From Candidatus Thalassospirochaeta sargassi (lineage in GTDB: Bacteria > Spirochaetota > Spirochaetia > UBA9216): a DNA stretch of 51,482 nt. The notes below the pieces were generated by a model, which had not been told where the DNA came from, ran no database searches, and saw only the letters and a list, made by a program, of their open reading frames with translations. A program made the position numbers and the translations under genes. The stretch is from NCBI GenBank assembly GCA_028532855.1, contig JAQQAL010000029.1, forward strand, positions 1 to 51,482, read 5' to 3'. Below are positions 23,250 through 29,501 of this stretch, one piece after another (position 1 is the first letter of the stretch; the number at the start of each line of letters is the position of its first letter).

Positions 23250-24419
23250 TCAGGTCTGATTGATTTCGCGAACCAGCTGTTTTGGTGTCATATCAAGTTC
23301 TTTTTTAATATAGGAATAAAAAGCTGACGAAGAACGAAAACCGCATTCAAAGGCTACAGCTATTATTGTGTAATCAGGATATCGATCGTTTTTCACCGCA
23401 TCCCTGTACTCCCTCAGTCTGTAATTATTAATAAAGGAGAAGAATCTTCTTCCAGATTCACGGTTAATTACTTCGGACAATCTGTGCCTGGTCTCACCGA
23501 ATTGTTCTGCAAGCATATCAAGAGTTAATTCTGAATCAAGATAAGGCTTTGTCTGTTCTAGATAAGAACAGAGAGCATTGTAAAGATCTCTGCTCTCATT
23601 ATCGCTGATACCCGATTTTTCATATTTCTGTCCTGATAGAGATTCCGTTTTGTCCGGTTTGTTCTTATCATCATAGTTTACAATGTTCTGATTCTCCGAA
23701 AAAATTGAAAAAAGAAACACAAATAAAACAGCCGGAAGACTCCGACCCACAGCGGCGGCAACCTGAGTAAACAGAAGGTCTTCAGGAAAAATCAGATAAA
23801 TCAGACTATTCAACAGGTATAGCCCTGTATACACTGCGACGAGAGTACCTAACCAGGAAAGAGTGTTTCGTCTGTTTATATCAGAAACCATGTCGGGCAG
23901 CTGTTTTTTATGCCGTCTGAGAATATTGATGATAATCAATAAATAAATAAGTCTTGAGAGATTGATGCTTAAATCCCAGTAAAACTTAAACGGGAAAAGC
24001 GGGGAAACCTTATGTTCAATTACAATACCGGTGTTAGAACCGAACGGAATTTCCGGATTAAGTGATGCCGGATCAATAAGCACATAGATAAACCATGTTG
24101 CGAAAGGAATCAGATGAAAAAAGGCTTCAGGTTTAAGCTTGAGATTTCCATTAAGCAAAACCCTCACATAAAAAAACAAAACAGGTCCCACCAGAAAATA
24201 GCTCAGCCGCGTAACCGGATAGATGAATTGCAATGCACTCATTGGAATTAGATGGGGTCGAAGCAGGTTATCAAAGATGTTGAGAAGAAAGACAAGTATA
24301 ACGGCAACACTGAAGCCGGCTTCCGGAGAATTTCTATTTTCTTTTCGGGTAAAATGCAGAATACCTGATACTGCCCAGGCGGTACCCATAGCGAGAATAA
24401 GCTCAAAATAGCGATACAT
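23250..24419 (-). CDS. Membrane-bound AraC-family regulator
   Basis: 389 residues from ATG 24419. A longer in-frame start (24653) would overlap the divergent gene and is rejected. The first ~245 residues form about seven transmembrane segments (such as YPVTRLSYFLVGPVLFFYVRVLL), a linker follows, and residues ~285-385 carry an AraC helix-turn-helix (LDMLAEQFGETRHRLSEVIN, then FECGFRSSSAFYSYIKKELDMTPKQLV). Such integral-membrane AraC proteins probably sense a signal at the membrane. TATAAT ends six bases before the ATG, hinting at a very short or absent leader. It is divergent from the lectin-like gene, a natural target. Confidence 0.9.
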   Translation of the reverse strand: MYRYFELILAMGTAWAVSGILHFTRKENRNSPEAGFSVAVILVFLLNIFDNLLRPHLIPMSALQFIYPVTRLSYFLVGPVLFFYVRVLLNGNLKLKPEAFFHLIPFATWFIYVLIDPASLNPEIPFGSNTGIVIEHKVSPLFPFKFYWDLSINLSRLIYLLIIINILRRHKKQLPDMVSDINRRNTLSWLGTLVAVYTGLYLLNSLIYLIFPEDLLFTQVAAAVGRSLPAVLFVFLFSIFSENQNIVNYDDKNKPDKTESLSGQKYEKSGISDNESRDLYNALCSYLEQTKPYLDSELTLDMLAEQFGETRHRLSEVINRESGRRFFSFINNYRLREYRDAVKNDRYPDYTIIAVAFECGFRSSSAFYSYIKKELDMTPKQLVREINQT

Positions 24420-24519
24420 GAAAATATTATACACTTTTTTTCCTTGCCGGTCGGCGGAGAAGATAAAAAAAGATAATAACCATATATTTAAGACATAAAA
24501 ACTCAAAACGGAGAACAAT

Positions 24520-25446
24520 ATGAACAGCAAATTAGTAACAGCTTTCATAATTCTGGCTATGGTGCTTACAAGTACAACGGTATTCGCAGGCGGAACACAG
24601 GAAGTAAAAGAGGTATCGAGCATAGCCGATGCAGCAATGGCTCTCGGTGTCACAGAAGATGAGCTTAGAAAAGCTTTAGGCGATCCAAATCAGGGTGGTC
24701 CCGATTTTGAAGCAGCTGCCGGAAAGCTTGGCGTATCAGCTGATAAACTGGAAAAACTTATGAAGCAGGTTGGTGCAGGGATGGAGGAATCAGTAGAAGT
24801 TGAACCTTACACCCTAACATTAAACGGTATTGACTTTGAGGTTATCTACGAGGTTTTCAGCTGGGAAGATCTTCCTGAAGACGTTGAATACGAACGTCAG
24901 GAAATTGTGAGCCTTACAGCCGAAGACGGCAGTATCCACTACTACGAGACTGTTTATGTTTCTACAGGAAACCTGAACTGGTATCAGGCAGCTTATCTTG
25001 CTCAGGAAGCAGGAGGATATCTTGCATGCCCCACAACTGATGAGGAAAACTCATTGTTATTCTCATTAGTCGACGACAAGAAATATTTCTGGGCATTTGA
25101 TGAAGAAGGCGAACATTACGGCATCAGCATAGGGCCCTTCCTCGGCGGATATCAGCCGGCTGGCTCGGTAGAACCAGATGGAGGCTGGAGATGGCTAAGC
25201 GGTGAAGACTGGAACTACTCAAACTGGGCGGTCAACCTTGACGACGGAGTTATCGACAAGGATCCCAGAGATAATACACAACCTAATGATTCAGGCGACG
25301 GACAGCCCATCATGGGATTCGGCGAGCTTAACGAACCAGTTCCAACATGGGGAGACTACATGGAAGCGGTAGGAACCTACGGACTGACCAGGTCGCCCGG
25401 CAGCTCGTTCGGCTTCATCATCGAATACGAATCCAACCCCATGTAA
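24520..25446 (+). CDS. Exported protein with C-type-lectin-like domain
   Basis: 308 residues. The signal peptide is cleaved after VFA (residue 23) before GGTQ, as in other exported proteins in this window. Residues ~24-90 are two short helical repeats (SIADAAMALGVTEDELRKAL, then EAAAGKLGVSADKLEKLM). The C-terminal ~180 residues match C-type-lectin-like folds in pattern: LNWYQAAYLAQEAGGYLACP, then EENSLLFSLVDD, GGYQ and WRWLSGEDWNYSNWA. Such domains bind carbohydrates or proteins at the surface. The start is supported by GGAGAAC upstream. It is divergent from a membrane AraC gene, and a strong terminator follows at 25472-25506. The ligand is unknown. Confidence 0.82.
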   Translation: MNSKLVTAFIILAMVLTSTTVFAGGTQEVKEVSSIADAAMALGVTEDELRKALGDPNQGGPDFEAAAGKLGVSADKLEKLMKQVGAGMEESVEVEPYTLTLNGIDFEVIYEVFSWEDLPEDVEYERQEIVSLTAEDGSIHYYETVYVSTGNLNWYQAAYLAQEAGGYLACPTTDEENSLLFSLVDDKKYFWAFDEEGEHYGISIGPFLGGYQPAGSVEPDGGWRWLSGEDWNYSNWAVNLDDGVIDKDPRDNTQPNDSGDGQPIMGFGELNEPVPTWGDYMEAVGTYGLTRSPGSSFGFIIEYESNPM

Positions 25447-25671: not shown

Positions 25672-25839
25672 TTAAATCTCTTTCTCTGCCGCGCTCTTGA
25701 AGTCACGCGCTTCTTTCATTCCCTGCTCAAACTCCAGTTTGGCCCTGCCAACATTCTTTGCAAACTTGGGAAGGGCAGATGCACCGAACAAAAGTACAAC
25801 TACTCCGCAGATTATCAGAACTTCAGTTGTTCCAATCAT
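25672..25839 (-). CDS. tatA: Sec-independent translocase protein TatA (55 aa)
   Basis: A 55-residue gene. The N-terminus is MIGTTEVLIICGVVVLLFGASALPKFAKNVGRAK, a single membrane helix, the FG hinge and an amphipathic helix, the exact TatA/E plan, followed by a short charged tail. It forms the pore-like oligomer that moves folded Tat substrates across the membrane. Its ATG (25839-25837) overlaps the tatB stop by four bases, so they are translationally coupled. It is the last gene of the six-gene flavoprotein/tat operon and is followed by the hairpin at 25611-25647. At 55 residues it is shorter than most TatA proteins. Confidence 0.93.
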   Translation of the reverse strand: MIGTTEVLIICGVVVLLFGASALPKFAKNVGRAKLEFEQGMKEARDFKSAAEKEI

Positions 25840-26090
25840 TTTATTTTCTCCTTAAAATTTATTGTATTATTAATCTGGAGCTTATCGTCTCCGGATGATT
25901 TTAAATCAGATGCGAATTTTACTTCTTCTTCAAATTCGTCATATACCTTTTTGAGATGATTAATCTGCCTCATGATCTTTCCGTACATCTTCCCGATTTT
26001 CCTGACGATAGACGGCAGTTCTTTCGGGTTTATCAGTACGATAACAACAACAAGTATTGTAATTATTTCCGAGAATCCAAACCCAAACAT
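25836..26090 (-). CDS. tatB: Sec-independent translocase protein TatB
   Basis: 84 residues. It starts FGFGFSEIITILVVVIVLINPKELPSI, with the Glu eight residues in and the NP-ELP hinge typical of TatB, then an amphipathic helix rich in K/E (GKIMRQINHLKKVYDEFEEEV). TatB sits with TatC in the receptor complex that reads twin-arginine signals. The gene begins immediately after tatC (no gap) and overlaps tatA by four bases. Together with the nearby Tat substrate gene this makes a compact translocase unit. Confidence 0.88.
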   Translation of the reverse strand: MFGFGFSEIITILVVVIVLINPKELPSIVRKIGKMYGKIMRQINHLKKVYDEFEEEVKFASDLKSSGDDKLQINNTINFKEKIK

Positions 26091-26849
26091 TTATTCCTCC
26101 CCGAATTTAAAAATCTTTGCAACCAGGATCGTTAGGTAAAAAAGCGCAGTCATGGGAAGCGCCAGACCAACCTGACTCACAAAATCAGGCGGTGAAATCA
26201 AGGCTGAAAGAATAAAAAATACAACCACCAGATACTTTCCTAATTTAAACAGCGTGTTTCGTTTTACGATGTTCAGTATCATCAACATTTCCAGAACTAT
26301 CGGTAGCTGAAATACAATAACGGCCATCAGCATGAATTGCAGGATGTAAAAGATATTACCGCTTAAGCTCAAAAGCATACCGGTGTTCTCAGGGATAAAC
26401 CCTTTTCCAGTAAGAAAAGCAATTGACACTGGTATTATCGTATAATAACTATAGTAAAAACTTCCGGTTATAAGAATGAAGCTGCTGATTAGCGCTGCAG
26501 ATATTATCTGTTTTTCCTTCTTCAGTAGTCCAGGAAAAATAAATCGTAATATATTGAAAACATGCACAGGCAGAGACAGGACAAATCCCGCCAGGGCAGA
26601 TATTTTCAACCTCACAAGAAACCCCTCCGCTATGGTATTTATAAAAAGGACTTCCCCATCCGAAGACGTTGTCAGCTGAAGAAGGGGGGCAAAGAGGAAA
26701 TCCATAATAAAATCATATAACAAGAGAGCTGTAATAAAACCGGCAAAGAGTGCGATACCTGAGATTACCAGGCATCGTCGCAATTCATTCAAATGCGAAA
26801 GCAGAGGCATTACAGCCTCTTTTGTTTCAATCGATTCCGCAGTACTCAT
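26091..26849 (-). CDS. tatC: Sec-independent translocase protein TatC
   Basis: 252 residues with six transmembrane helices. Family motifs include MPLLSHLNELRRCLVISGIA near the N-terminus (the conserved Glu and Arg that contact the twin-arginine signal), FVLSLPVHVFNILRFIFPGL and FQLPIVLEMLMI. TatC is the core receptor for twin-arginine signal peptides in the cytoplasmic membrane. It starts six bases after the stop of the flavoprotein gene, whose product carries an SRRQFLG signal. That spacing supports a dedicated translocase for that substrate, although TatABC could serve others. Confidence 0.95.
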   Translation of the reverse strand: MSTAESIETKEAVMPLLSHLNELRRCLVISGIALFAGFITALLLYDFIMDFLFAPLLQLTTSSDGEVLFINTIAEGFLVRLKISALAGFVLSLPVHVFNILRFIFPGLLKKEKQIISAALISSFILITGSFYYSYYTIIPVSIAFLTGKGFIPENTGMLLSLSGNIFYILQFMLMAVIVFQLPIVLEMLMILNIVKRNTLFKLGKYLVVVFFILSALISPPDFVSQVGLALPMTALFYLTILVAKIFKFGEE

Positions 26850-26854
26850 AACTA

Positions 26855-28639
26855 CTACACCGGCCAGCTGTCGAAGGGCTGTTTCACAAACTTCATCTCA
26901 CCGTCGGACCCCTTGTATATGTTAATCCAGGCCTGCCAGTTTTTATAATCCACATCCGGATAATCAAGGCGATAGTGAGAACACCTGCTTTCCTTACGCA
27001 TTAGCGAAGCCTTTAGTTTCATTTCTGCATTTACAATCATATTCTCAGTTTCATGTGCGAGTCTGAGTTCATGAAGATCTGCCGCCCGCAGCATCGGGCT
27101 GTGGTGGTCGCGAAGTTCTTCAACATAGGCCAGGGCAGCCTTCAGAATGCTCTCCTTCTTTATGTAGATAACAAAATTAGGAATCATAACCCCCTGCAGA
27201 ATCTGGGTAACCCAGGCCGGACTGTAACCGGAGTCCCTTTTTAGCGGAGCAAGTATCTCTTCCTTTATTCTGCTGATTTTGGAAGATGGTATATTCTGCA
27301 GAACTGCCTTCTGGCAGTATTCGGCTGCCGCCTCAGATGCAATTGTACCCTGAACTGCAGAACCTGCAAGTGAAGATCCTACCTGAGTATAAATAGCTCC
27401 AGCCATGTATGAACCGAGAGCATCTCCTGCAGCATAGAGCCCGGGTATATTTGATTCTCCCTTCTCGTTAATTGGCACCAGTCCTTCCGACTTGTGAATT
27501 GCCATACCGGCTGAAGCTCCGCCGGAGGAAGCTCCTGCTGCCATACCGGGGCCCCTGCCTTCTTCACCGCCCGGGGGTGGCCCAGAGGGTCTGTCGCCAG
27601 CCTCAGCGCCAGGAGGTGGTCCCATCTTATCACCGTTTCCGCCGCCCGGAGGTGCTCCGGCTTCCCTGTTCCTGACAAATTTCTCGGGAACATAAGGACC
27701 ACCCTCAACAATTGTATTATCGCCGCCGGGCATCATTGAAACAGGGTTGCCAAGAACATAAGCCCTGTAGTTTATATCCACTCCAAGATCATGGTGTATC
27801 TCAACACCGGTTTTTGATGGAGACATCGCAAACATTCCATGCCACCCGTCGTAACAGGCTGCCGGGTTATCCATTGAGCCTCCATGCCCATCATTCCATT
27901 CCTTACCGGTAATCTTTGCACCGATTTTATATGCCATAACCGAACCGTCATGGGTGAGATCACAGATAGGAAAACCGTTTGGTTTGAAACCGCCCGCGCC
28001 TGTACAGAGAATAACGGACTTGGCCTTAAAAATATGTATTGTCGGCTCATCGATACTGAACCCTGCTGCTCCGGCAATCTTCCCGTTTTCCTTGATTAGA
28101 TGAGTTATCATTATTCTTTCCATAACGGAAATATTTCTCTCATTGATCGGTTTACTGAAAGAATCATAATAGAGGGGCGAATCAAAAAAGCCCCATTCTC
28201 TCAGCTCATCAACCCTTGCCTTGGAATGCTCTGCCATCTGTCTCGTAAAAACAGGATTATTTGTTTTTAAAGCTGAGGACGAAACCTGTTCTGTAAACTC
28301 GTCAAGGCTTACGGAGGCAGTAGCTGCATCATAGGAAAAGATACCCTTAGCAAATGGAGTCTGACCGGAGGAACCAAGCCGCCCTTTTGAAACCATAAGC
28401 ACCTTTGCACCGGCGTCATGGCCTTTAACTGCTGCAAACAGCCCTGTCATTCCACCGCCTATAACAAGAATATCCGTTTCATTTTCTTTATAGTTCATGT
28501 TTTCCGGATCAATCTTACGTTCATTTTTTGTTCCCCGGTATTTAAAGCCGATAGACGCAAGAGCTGCAGCCCCAACTACCCCGCCTGTGAGTCCCAGGAA
28601 CTGCCTTCTAGACATTCCTTTATCTGATTTATCACTCAT
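26855..28639 (-). CDS. Tat-exported FAD-binding oxidoreductase (fumarate reductase/AprA-like)
   Basis: 594 residues. The twin-arginine signal SRRQFLG (residues 10-16) with a hydrophobic core shows export in folded form. An FAD-binding Rossmann motif follows (ILVIGGGMTGLFAA, Gly61-63 and Gly66). Later come ILCTGAGGF and a C-terminal LYAAGDALGSYMAGA, the second FAD segment of the succinate dehydrogenase/fumarate reductase/AprA superfamily. A Gly/Pro-rich insert lies around residues 330-385. The C-terminal region (ESRCSHYRLDYPDVDYKNW) resembles AprA-like proteins. The acceptor is unknown; it is probably a periplasmic reductase. It overlaps the membrane cytochrome gene by eight bases and is followed at once by tatC. 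Confidence 0.9.
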   Translation of the reverse strand: MSDKSDKGMSRRQFLGLTGGVVGAAALASIGFKYRGTKNERKIDPENMNYKENETDILVIGGGMTGLFAAVKGHDAGAKVLMVSKGRLGSSGQTPFAKGIFSYDAATASVSLDEFTEQVSSSALKTNNPVFTRQMAEHSKARVDELREWGFFDSPLYYDSFSKPINERNISVMERIMITHLIKENGKIAGAAGFSIDEPTIHIFKAKSVILCTGAGGFKPNGFPICDLTHDGSVMAYKIGAKITGKEWNDGHGGSMDNPAACYDGWHGMFAMSPSKTGVEIHHDLGVDINYRAYVLGNPVSMMPGGDNTIVEGGPYVPEKFVRNREAGAPPGGGNGDKMGPPPGAEAGDRPSGPPPGGEEGRGPGMAAGASSGGASAGMAIHKSEGLVPINEKGESNIPGLYAAGDALGSYMAGAIYTQVGSSLAGSAVQGTIASEAAAEYCQKAVLQNIPSSKISRIKEEILAPLKRDSGYSPAWVTQILQGVMIPNFVIYIKKESILKAALAYVEELRDHHSPMLRAADLHELRLAHETENMIVNAEMKLKASLMRKESRCSHYRLDYPDVDYKNWQAWINIYKGSDGEMKFVKQPFDSWPV

Positions 28640-29282
28640 TTACTGCCTCCTGAGGTATTTTGCCGGCTTCAACAAAGTAAAGCTTTGCAAGAAAGAATAT
28701 TCCAATTGCCGCCATTCCAATCATGTACGTTGAAAGAAAGGCATCAGTATGCCGGCCTAGATCGACTGCATGCCAGGTAGCCAGAACAACAAATGCAATA
28801 GACAGAAAACCATGGGAATATCTCCAGGTTGTATATTTCATCTTCATCTTCTTTCTGAACATCGATGTTATTCCGATCAGAATCATCAGAGCCATTGCTG
28901 CGAAACCCATAATAATTCCCTTGCTGCCAAAAGTCGTCAGGATAGTCTTAAATGCATTTACCGGATCAACACCGCCTTCGTAATATCGCGGAAATACAAC
29001 AAGAAAGGGATGAAGAAAAAGCACCGGTATAAAAACGTATCCGATTACCTTATGAAGGATCACAACCCTTGAAAACTTCTGCCCCTTAAGGGTGATTTTA
29101 TTTATACGGGTCAGGTAAAACTGCCCGAGCATAAGAAAAAACGCACCGACCGTAAGCAGCGATACAGCCTCTTTCAGGATTGTTCTATCGGGAAAATTAC
29201 CGAAAATCATGTACAGGAGCGGGACCGCAAGATAGAGGATAACTCCGGGTATGATATACCTGAGCCTTGATTTTTCAGTCAT
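28632..29282 (-). CDS. Ferric-reductase-like heme b membrane protein
   Basis: 216 residues, about six transmembrane helices. Paired histidines fit two b hemes: LHKVIGYVFIPVLFLHPFLVV in one helix and YSHGFLSIAFVVLATWHAVDL in another. This is the ferric-reductase-like/MsrQ type arrangement of a quinol- or ferredoxin-linked membrane electron carrier. It would pass electrons across the membrane to the Tat-exported flavoprotein encoded next, whose start codon lies inside its last codons (eight-base overlap). The ferredoxin gene is three bases upstream. The electron donor is not shown by sequence. Confidence 0.82.
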   Translation of the reverse strand: MTEKSRLRYIIPGVILYLAVPLLYMIFGNFPDRTILKEAVSLLTVGAFFLMLGQFYLTRINKITLKGQKFSRVVILHKVIGYVFIPVLFLHPFLVVFPRYYEGGVDPVNAFKTILTTFGSKGIIMGFAAMALMILIGITSMFRKKMKMKYTTWRYSHGFLSIAFVVLATWHAVDLGRHTDAFLSTYMIGMAAIGIFFLAKLYFVEAGKIPQEAVNE

Positions 29283-29285
29283 CTG

Positions 29286-29501
29286 TTACCCCCATGAAAT
29301 CATTACCGGTATGGATTTTTCCGGCTCAATCGTGATGGCGTCTACCGGACAATACATCCTGCAGAGATGACAAATTTGACAATCCTCAGGATAAGCGATA
29401 TAAGCTTTGCCGTCTTTTGGACTCAGACGAATAACATCAGTAGGACATGACTTTACACATGTTCCACAACCGATACATCCGCTGATTTTCTTTATTGACA
29501 T
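29286..29501 (-). CDS. Small 2x[4Fe-4S] ferredoxin
   Basis: 71 residues with two full [4Fe-4S] motifs: Cys9-x2-Cys12-x2-Cys15-x3-Cys19-Pro and Cys41-x2-Cys44-x2-Cys47-x3-Cys51-Pro. It has no signal peptide, so it is cytosolic unless carried out with the flavoprotein. It resembles AprB-like ferredoxins, matching the AprA-like flavoprotein two genes downstream. The start is well supported by AGAAGGGAG. It is the first gene of the six-gene operon (ferredoxin, membrane cytochrome, flavoprotein, tatC, tatB, tatA). It is divergent from a small lipoprotein. Confidence 0.93.
   Translation of the reverse strand: MSIKKISGCIGCGTCVKSCPTDVIRLSPKDGKAYIAYPEDCQICHLCRMYCPVDAITIEPEKSIPVMISWG

Follow-up and report, generated by a model that had tools for sequence, protein, structure and literature searches.

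A spirochaete operon that probably encodes an extracytoplasmic flavoprotein reductase and a TatABC translocase dedicated to it

A six-gene operon in a 51,482-nucleotide stretch of spirochaete DNA (the whole of which is called the window here) encodes, with a probability of about 0.6 in our estimation, an extracytoplasmic terminal reductase together with a cargo-dedicated TatABC translocase. In the mechanism that we propose, the flavoprotein (Fp) would fold with its FAD in the cytoplasm and bind the signal-less 4Fe-4S protein Fd, and the Fp-Fd pair would then cross the membrane through the co-produced TatABC, with Fd as a hitchhiker. A diheme-b membrane protein would receive electrons, probably from quinol, and carry them through the membrane to the Fe-S subunit, from which they would reach the FAD; the FAD would then reduce an external acceptor that is not of the fumarate kind. 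The spirochaete translocase would have been inherited with its cargo and would serve essentially Fp, Tat being scarce in spirochaetes. We infer the co-export of Fd, quinol as the donor, the direction of electron flow and the specificity of the translocase.

The operon and its surroundings

The window makes up one of the 53 contigs of a genome of 3.8 Mb that is estimated to be 100% complete. Six minus-strand open reading frames (25672-29501) encode Fd, a Ferric_reduct membrane protein, Fp, TatC, TatB and TatA, with gaps or overlaps from Fd to tatA of +3, -8, +5, 0 and -4, and re-examination of the reading frames reproduced exactly the genes, positions and all five spacings given in a first-pass annotation of this DNA. 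Fd (29286-29501) is a ferredoxin of 71 aa with two 4Fe-4S motifs (Pfam Fer4, 4.6e-12) and no signal peptide, and it is followed by a short Ferric_reduct-type membrane protein (28632-29282; 216 aa; PF01794, 1.8e-14) with two predicted b hemes. Fp (26855-28639; 594 aa), a FAD protein with predicted Tat export, matched PF00890 (FAD_binding_2; 6e-19) and PF02910 (Succ_DH_flav_C; 2e-11). Its twin-arginine motif, SRRQFLG (28592-28612), already read as a Tat signal in the first-pass annotation, proved to be the best Tat-signal match of the whole genome, and its RR and F are invariant in 18 homologues. A Pro/Gly-rich loop of variable length (27524-27664) replaces much of the capping domain in the alignment. 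The translocase is complete: TatC (26091-26849; PF00902, 1.2e-45) keeps the conserved HLxELR region, and TatB (25836-26090; TIGR01410, 8.8e-13) and a TatA of 55 aa (25672-25839; TIGR01411, 6.3e-13) were matched clearly, yet slightly below NCBI's curated cut-offs. The order at tatB is kept in loci L007, L008, L010, L030 and L103, and TatA is 70-80% identical in other spirochaete operons. Because the block of six genes was found again, in the same order, in other spirochaetes, this gene order is not accidental. In consensus scans, promoter-like sites were no more frequent than expected by chance, terminator-like sites exceeded expectation (10 against 4.4), and none of these was a minus-strand site between Fp and tatC.

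Two genes outside the operon are possible associates: one encodes an exported C-type-lectin-like protein (24520-25446, plus strand; neighbour clustering and Pfam) and the other a membrane-anchored AraC-type regulator (23250-24653, minus strand; PF12833), a relative of which follows tatA in L007. Two-component systems, Lcl_C/lectin-like surface proteins, EF-hand proteins, Spy/LTXXQ-like proteins and Pro/Gly-rich small exported proteins recurred near Fp, and these neighbours suggest an envelope-sensing regulon. Lcl_C/DUF1566 or lectin-like exported proteins were seen by Fp in several phyla (L008, 2504-4060; L013, 8839-9450; L017, 311-1744; L027, 1710-2981). The Bacteroidota Fp operons (L012, 11172-14887; L015, 1988-5789) lie close to a CotH-like gene, and their neighbours include a conserved set resembling VTC and DUF4956 proteins.

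The redox core

When 84,980 species genomes were scanned, Fp homologues at 61-76% identity were found in nine phyla, mostly in marine anaerobes (Spirochaetota, Omnitrophota, Thermodesulfobacteriota, Bacteroidota, Campylobacterota, Pseudomonadota, Fermentibacterota, Krumholzibacteriota and Neomarinimicrobiota). In all complete loci Fd was the gene directly ahead of Fp or of cytb-Fp, and it was 72-86% identical over 18 aligned loci; the Fd-Fp pair was usually accompanied by the diheme-b membrane protein. The twin-arginine motif was present in 18/18 aligned Fps and in every intact Fp except the Fp1 and Fp2 copies of Ilyobacter. On a megaplasmid of Paracoccus seriniphilus, the order Fd-cytb-Fp is preceded by a response regulator together with what is probably its sensor kinase, an ATP-binding protein. 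An Omnitrophota MAG (L009) carries an Fp that is nested inside the spirochaete Fp clade, with no adjacent tat and with tatC elsewhere in the genome; unless its contig was mis-binned, this locus is a natural contrast to the spirochaete operons. Since Fp was absent from the four other searched genomes of the window's genus (two of them only about 81% complete), the Fp of the window's genome was probably acquired. A scan of viral contigs found no relatives, and literature searches found no papers on this flavoprotein family.

Fp belongs to the complex-II/APS-reductase flavoprotein superfamily. Its nearest solved relatives, by sequence and by fold, are AprA, PAPS reductase alpha and complex II (Sdh1), and the best Foldseek matches of its model were PAPS/APS reductase, FrdA and SdhA, the cap being poor in the model. 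The structural modelling proposed in the first-pass annotation, done with AlphaFold2, gave a pLDDT of 52.6 with 18 close homologues and of 58.6 after seven rows, four of them AprA, were added; the second model had a good FAD domain but no reliable cap. The capping domain is, in the alignment, largely the Pro/Gly-rich loop. His252, His382, Lys383, Glu385, His523 and His555 are invariant in the Fp homologues and are candidate residues of a new site. The same annotation had given an anaerobic reductase for an external acceptor as the likely role, and this role is plausible, but the acceptor is probably not a fumarate-like dicarboxylate: across 24 homologues no Arg is invariant between Fp residues 176 and 525, the segment in which FrdA-type fumarate reductases carry their catalytic and carboxylate-binding Arg. 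Furthermore, the GANRLGSNS-type motif reads GAIYTQVGSS in Fp. Both features stand against a periplasmic fumarate or ene-reductase of the FrdA/FccA/UrdA/Mrd kind, which we consider improbable even though such enzymes share the superfamily and fold of Fp and Mrd is likewise Tat-exported and has moved horizontally with its electron donor (PMC4427408). We also give little credence to an APS-reductase-derived periplasmic sulfur-oxyanion enzyme, or to a complex that runs in the dehydrogenase direction and delivers electrons to the quinone pool. APS/PAPS reductases are indeed the nearest solved relatives, and an Fe-S protein before a flavoprotein is also the aprB-aprA order; however, the curated aprA model scored 84 bits on Fp against a cut-off of 641.75, Fp is only 26-27% identical to the real AprA in L031-L034, the NTY motif of AprA is not retained, and NAD(P)H-linked donors indicate outward flow.

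In the membrane protein, His77/His91 and His157/His171, with 13 residues between the members of each pair, are invariant in 18/18 homologues and, as a sequence pattern, correspond to the two-heme signature of the ferric-reductase/NOX family. The donor module is this short diheme-b protein in most loci; in Psychromonas/Neptunomonas it is a fusion of the Ferric_reduct core with FAD and NAD(P)H domains, and in Ilyobacter and three further genomes (G356, G530 and G468) a NapH-type Fe-S protein takes its place, accompanied by an FMN_bind domain in some cases and not in others. FMN_bind is absent from the window operon, has a Pfam match in Ilyobacter and is a separate protein in G468, matched by BLAST only. 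The Fd-Fp pairing persists across all of these swaps. The first-pass annotation had drawn an electron path from a cytosolic ferredoxin over membrane heme b to an extracytoplasmic flavin; an electron path to an extracytoplasmic flavin is plausible given the four invariant His, but a cytosolic place for Fd did not follow from the sequence. Because the donor is interchangeable while Fd and Fp stay paired, Fd is more likely an exported Fe-S subunit of Fp than a cytosolic donor. In addition, a cytosolic Fd would be superfluous for a donor that carries a NAD(P)H/FAD domain of its own in the cytosol, and such a donor sets the direction of electrons outward. In a 1999 paper listed in PMC6708511, Rodrigue reportedly described a hitchhiker route by which a signal-less partner is co-exported through Tat. 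We regard as unlikely the alternative that reduced Fd acts in the cytosol and feeds the inner heme b, from which electrons cross the membrane to exported Fp. It would agree with the missing signal peptide, with the resemblance of Fd to bacterial 2[4Fe-4S] ferredoxins and with the position of Fd in Ilyobacter ahead of two Fp copies that lack Tat signals, whereas Fd keeps its place next to Fp even in loci with a membrane donor that brings its own NAD(P)H/FAD domain or is a NapH-type Fe-S protein. Fd is also the most conserved member of the operon (72-86% identity vs 25-66% for the membrane protein), and thus better conserved than the protein to which a cytosolic Fd must dock.

The translocase and its cargo

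tatC follows Fp in eight of the nine spirochaete loci (the window, L007, L008, L010, L030, L056, L103 and L104), with tatB and tatA where these are readable, and in 0/16 non-spirochaete loci. The flanks of those 16 loci held no tat genes (0/16), and tatC was present away from the Fp locus in 16/16 of these genomes. Spirochaetes have added the tat genes to the redox core. The first-pass annotation had reasoned that redox homologues regularly found without tat genes would argue against a dedicated system. This arrangement is what we found in 16/16 non-spirochaete loci; since those genomes have a general Tat, the absence of adjacent tat limits the generality of the coupling and does not refute dedication in the spirochaetes. 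At the ninth spirochaete locus, in Treponema sp. CETP13 (L028/G266), Fp is disrupted and tat is not adjacent: the Fp (L028, 7001-8328) is split into two frames with the middle segment missing, and the single tatC of this genome is found at a different locus (L045), next to another gene with a Tat signal. In L030, around 2020, the first ~100 residues of Fp are lost at a junction with a response-regulator gene, which is either an assembly chimera or a real deletion.

Substrates were counted with the NCBI Tat-signal model as signals above its cut-off, which misses weak signals, so that a count of one substrate may be an undercount. In G399, G400 and G402, the operon tatC is the sole tatC of the genome and Fp carries the one signal above the cut-off, which supports the view of the first-pass annotation that the flavoprotein has a co-operonic TatABC of its own. 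G419 also has the operon tatC only, and the start of its Fp is lost at a contig junction. Two signals and likewise two tatC loci were counted in each of G000, the window's genome, and G356. Because signal and tatC counts agree (1:1 and 2:2), tat loci and evident substrates match one to one; Desulfuromusa and Labilibaculum have 12 and 8 Tat signals, with one general tatC each. By these counts, the operon Tat appears to serve Fp alone in several related spirochaete genomes. A search for a second tatABC, also proposed in that annotation, found one in the window's genome as tatCBA next to another Tat substrate, so the operon set is not the only one there. The second signal of G000 and G356 belongs to an Fe-S protein beside homologues of aldehyde oxidoreductase (AOR) and FdhD, names that come from sequence inspection and BLAST rather than a profile search, and beside the second tatCBA. 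Since both genomes have this second Tat, need alone does not explain why they keep the operon tat.

The second tatCBA of the window's genome (L037, 7523-12929; contig C2, about 29.5-34.9 kb) lies in line with the Tat-signal Fe-S protein (TRRDFLKI), and the cluster also contains the AOR-family protein and the FdhD homologue, with NADH-dehydrogenase-like and polyprenyl-synthase-like genes downstream; clusters of this kind were seen in at least nine loci of Spirochaetia. In three spirochaetes, all from one family (L114, L129 and L130), the same TatC type lies by an apparent NiFe hydrogenase, the small subunit of which carries a TRRxFxKx signal. Another spirochaete tat locus (L125, 647-2923) has a Tat-signal flavoprotein with 30% identity to Fp, followed by an 86-aa ferredoxin, and is possibly a second, parallel Fp-Fd-tat unit. 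This TatC type was found in 40 of 395 Spirochaetia genomes. A Tat-signal ORF lay within 4.5 kb of tatC in 33/60 Spirochaetia loci, compared with 0/9 background stretches (a small control). This count rules out the idea that every Spirochaetia tat locus adjoins its cargo; equally, against the statement in the first-pass annotation that Tat genes normally sit apart from their substrates, an adjoining substrate is not so unusual in Spirochaetia, and one is known from TatAdCd/PhoD (PMC6708511).

In a TatC tree of 54 rows, where near-copies favour the clustering of any label, the TatC of the window grouped with those of the seven other spirochaete Fp operons in one clade (8/8; 100/100), the TatCs of the AOR clusters formed a second (9/9; 97/93) and the hydrogenase-linked TatCs a third (3/3; 95/70). 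The three cargo labels required 2 changes on the tree, the minimum possible, against a shuffled mean of 9.1, and 0/200 shuffles were as low. Both the Fp and the AOR types of TatC are held by host family f1, and likewise by f19. To judge from this tree, TatC inheritance tracks cargo, not host family. We put forward, tentatively and as possible rather than probable, a joint reading in which spirochaetes have parallel, portable TatABC sets, every one of them specific for a single redox enzyme and passed on with it (this flavoprotein, the aldehyde-oxidoreductase Fe-S protein or the NiFe hydrogenase), with routes that would be mutually specific in one cell, and in which one set also reached the Fusobacteriota. 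Rather unlikely, in our assessment, is that the operon tat is an ordinary house-keeping Tat with many substrates, cotranscribed by chance, and that the linkage is a passive outcome of gene transfer. The 16 non-spirochaete genomes whose Fp homologues use a distant tatC would fit such a history, as would the tat-less Omnitrophota locus within the spirochaete Fp clade and the many Spirochaetia tatC loci (about half) with no Tat-signal gene near. Against it, the spirochaete carriers show one Tat signal above the cut-off per tat locus, the TatC tree tracks cargo at the minimum number of changes, and two Tats are kept in cells with two cargoes.

A second phylum with Fp-tat linkage is represented by Ilyobacter polytropus (Fusobacteriota), whose 962 kb plasmid encodes a NapH-FMN_bind protein, a 71-aa ferredoxin, three Fp paralogues and TatA-TatC-TatB. 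Among the genomes surveyed in an earlier study, its tatC was the only plasmid-borne one (PMC3827258). The Ilyobacter Fps are 45-46% identical to the Fp of the window and share its Pro/Gly-rich loop, and only the third has a Tat motif. Since they are outgroups to all other Fps in the tree, the coupling in Ilyobacter would either have arisen independently or be old. The Ilyobacter TatC falls inside the same large spirochaetal TatC clade (100/98), and the tree does not settle its sister. One recent transfer behind both the spirochaete and the Ilyobacter units was rejected on the outgroup position of the Fps and the unsettled TatC sister. The three paralogues are in tandem (L067, 7339-12346), two of them without a Tat signal, and it is possible that all three are exported on one signal.

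Comparison with known systems

Studies of Tat treat it as a general pump that moves tens of substrates. Genomes in which a single TatABC and a single evident substrate share an operon make a minimal natural system for the study of TatC recognition beyond the twin arginine, and a genome with two such sets offers a test of the cargo specificity of translocases. In addition, an export machine is seen here to spread together with its enzyme, and that enzyme belongs to a family shared, at 61-76% identity, by nine phyla in which the carriers are mostly marine anaerobes.

Cargo-dedicated Tat is already known from TatAdCd of B. subtilis, whose tat genes are co-expressed with one substrate, PhoD, while a second Tat with other cargo works in the same cell (PMC6708511); what is new here is the TatABC set, the respiratory-type cargo and the cargo-tracking inheritance of TatC. 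As in that system, tat genes share an operon with a Tat substrate in the window and seven other spirochaete loci, and other substrates appear to be few: G399, G400 and G402 have one Tat signal each above the cut-off, and the second signal of G000 adjoins the second tat. Unlike TatAdCd-PhoD, a two-component TatAC with a phosphodiesterase as cargo, this operon has a full TatABC and a respiratory-type flavoprotein, and its TatC clades follow cargo across host families.

The redox genes resemble AprBA and PAPS reductase alpha (PDB 1jnr, 8a8o) in gene order and in combining a FAD protein of the same superfamily with a small 2[4Fe-4S] partner; unlike these cytosolic enzymes, Fp has a Tat signal, only 26-27% identity, a cap that is mostly Pro/Gly loop and none of the AprA motif residues. 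In MsrPQ and in NOX/ferric reductases, a diheme-b Ferric_reduct protein supplies electrons to an extracytoplasmic acceptor or, in the case of MsrP, to a partner exported by Tat. The Fp operon has a diheme-b Ferric_reduct membrane protein (PF01794) as well, whereas its partner is a flavoprotein with an Fe-S subunit and not the molybdopterin-binding MsrP, a molybdoenzyme. The Mrd/Mcc and flavinylated fumarate reductase-like systems have extracytoplasmic PF00890 enzymes, interchangeable electron-delivery modules and operon-wise horizontal transfer (PMC4427408, PMC8238504). The Fp operon likewise has an extracytoplasmic PF00890 enzyme with swappable donor modules; unlike those systems, its Fp comes from another branch of the superfamily and has no catalytic Arg and no c-heme, and the window operon has no FMN_bind but carries tat genes.
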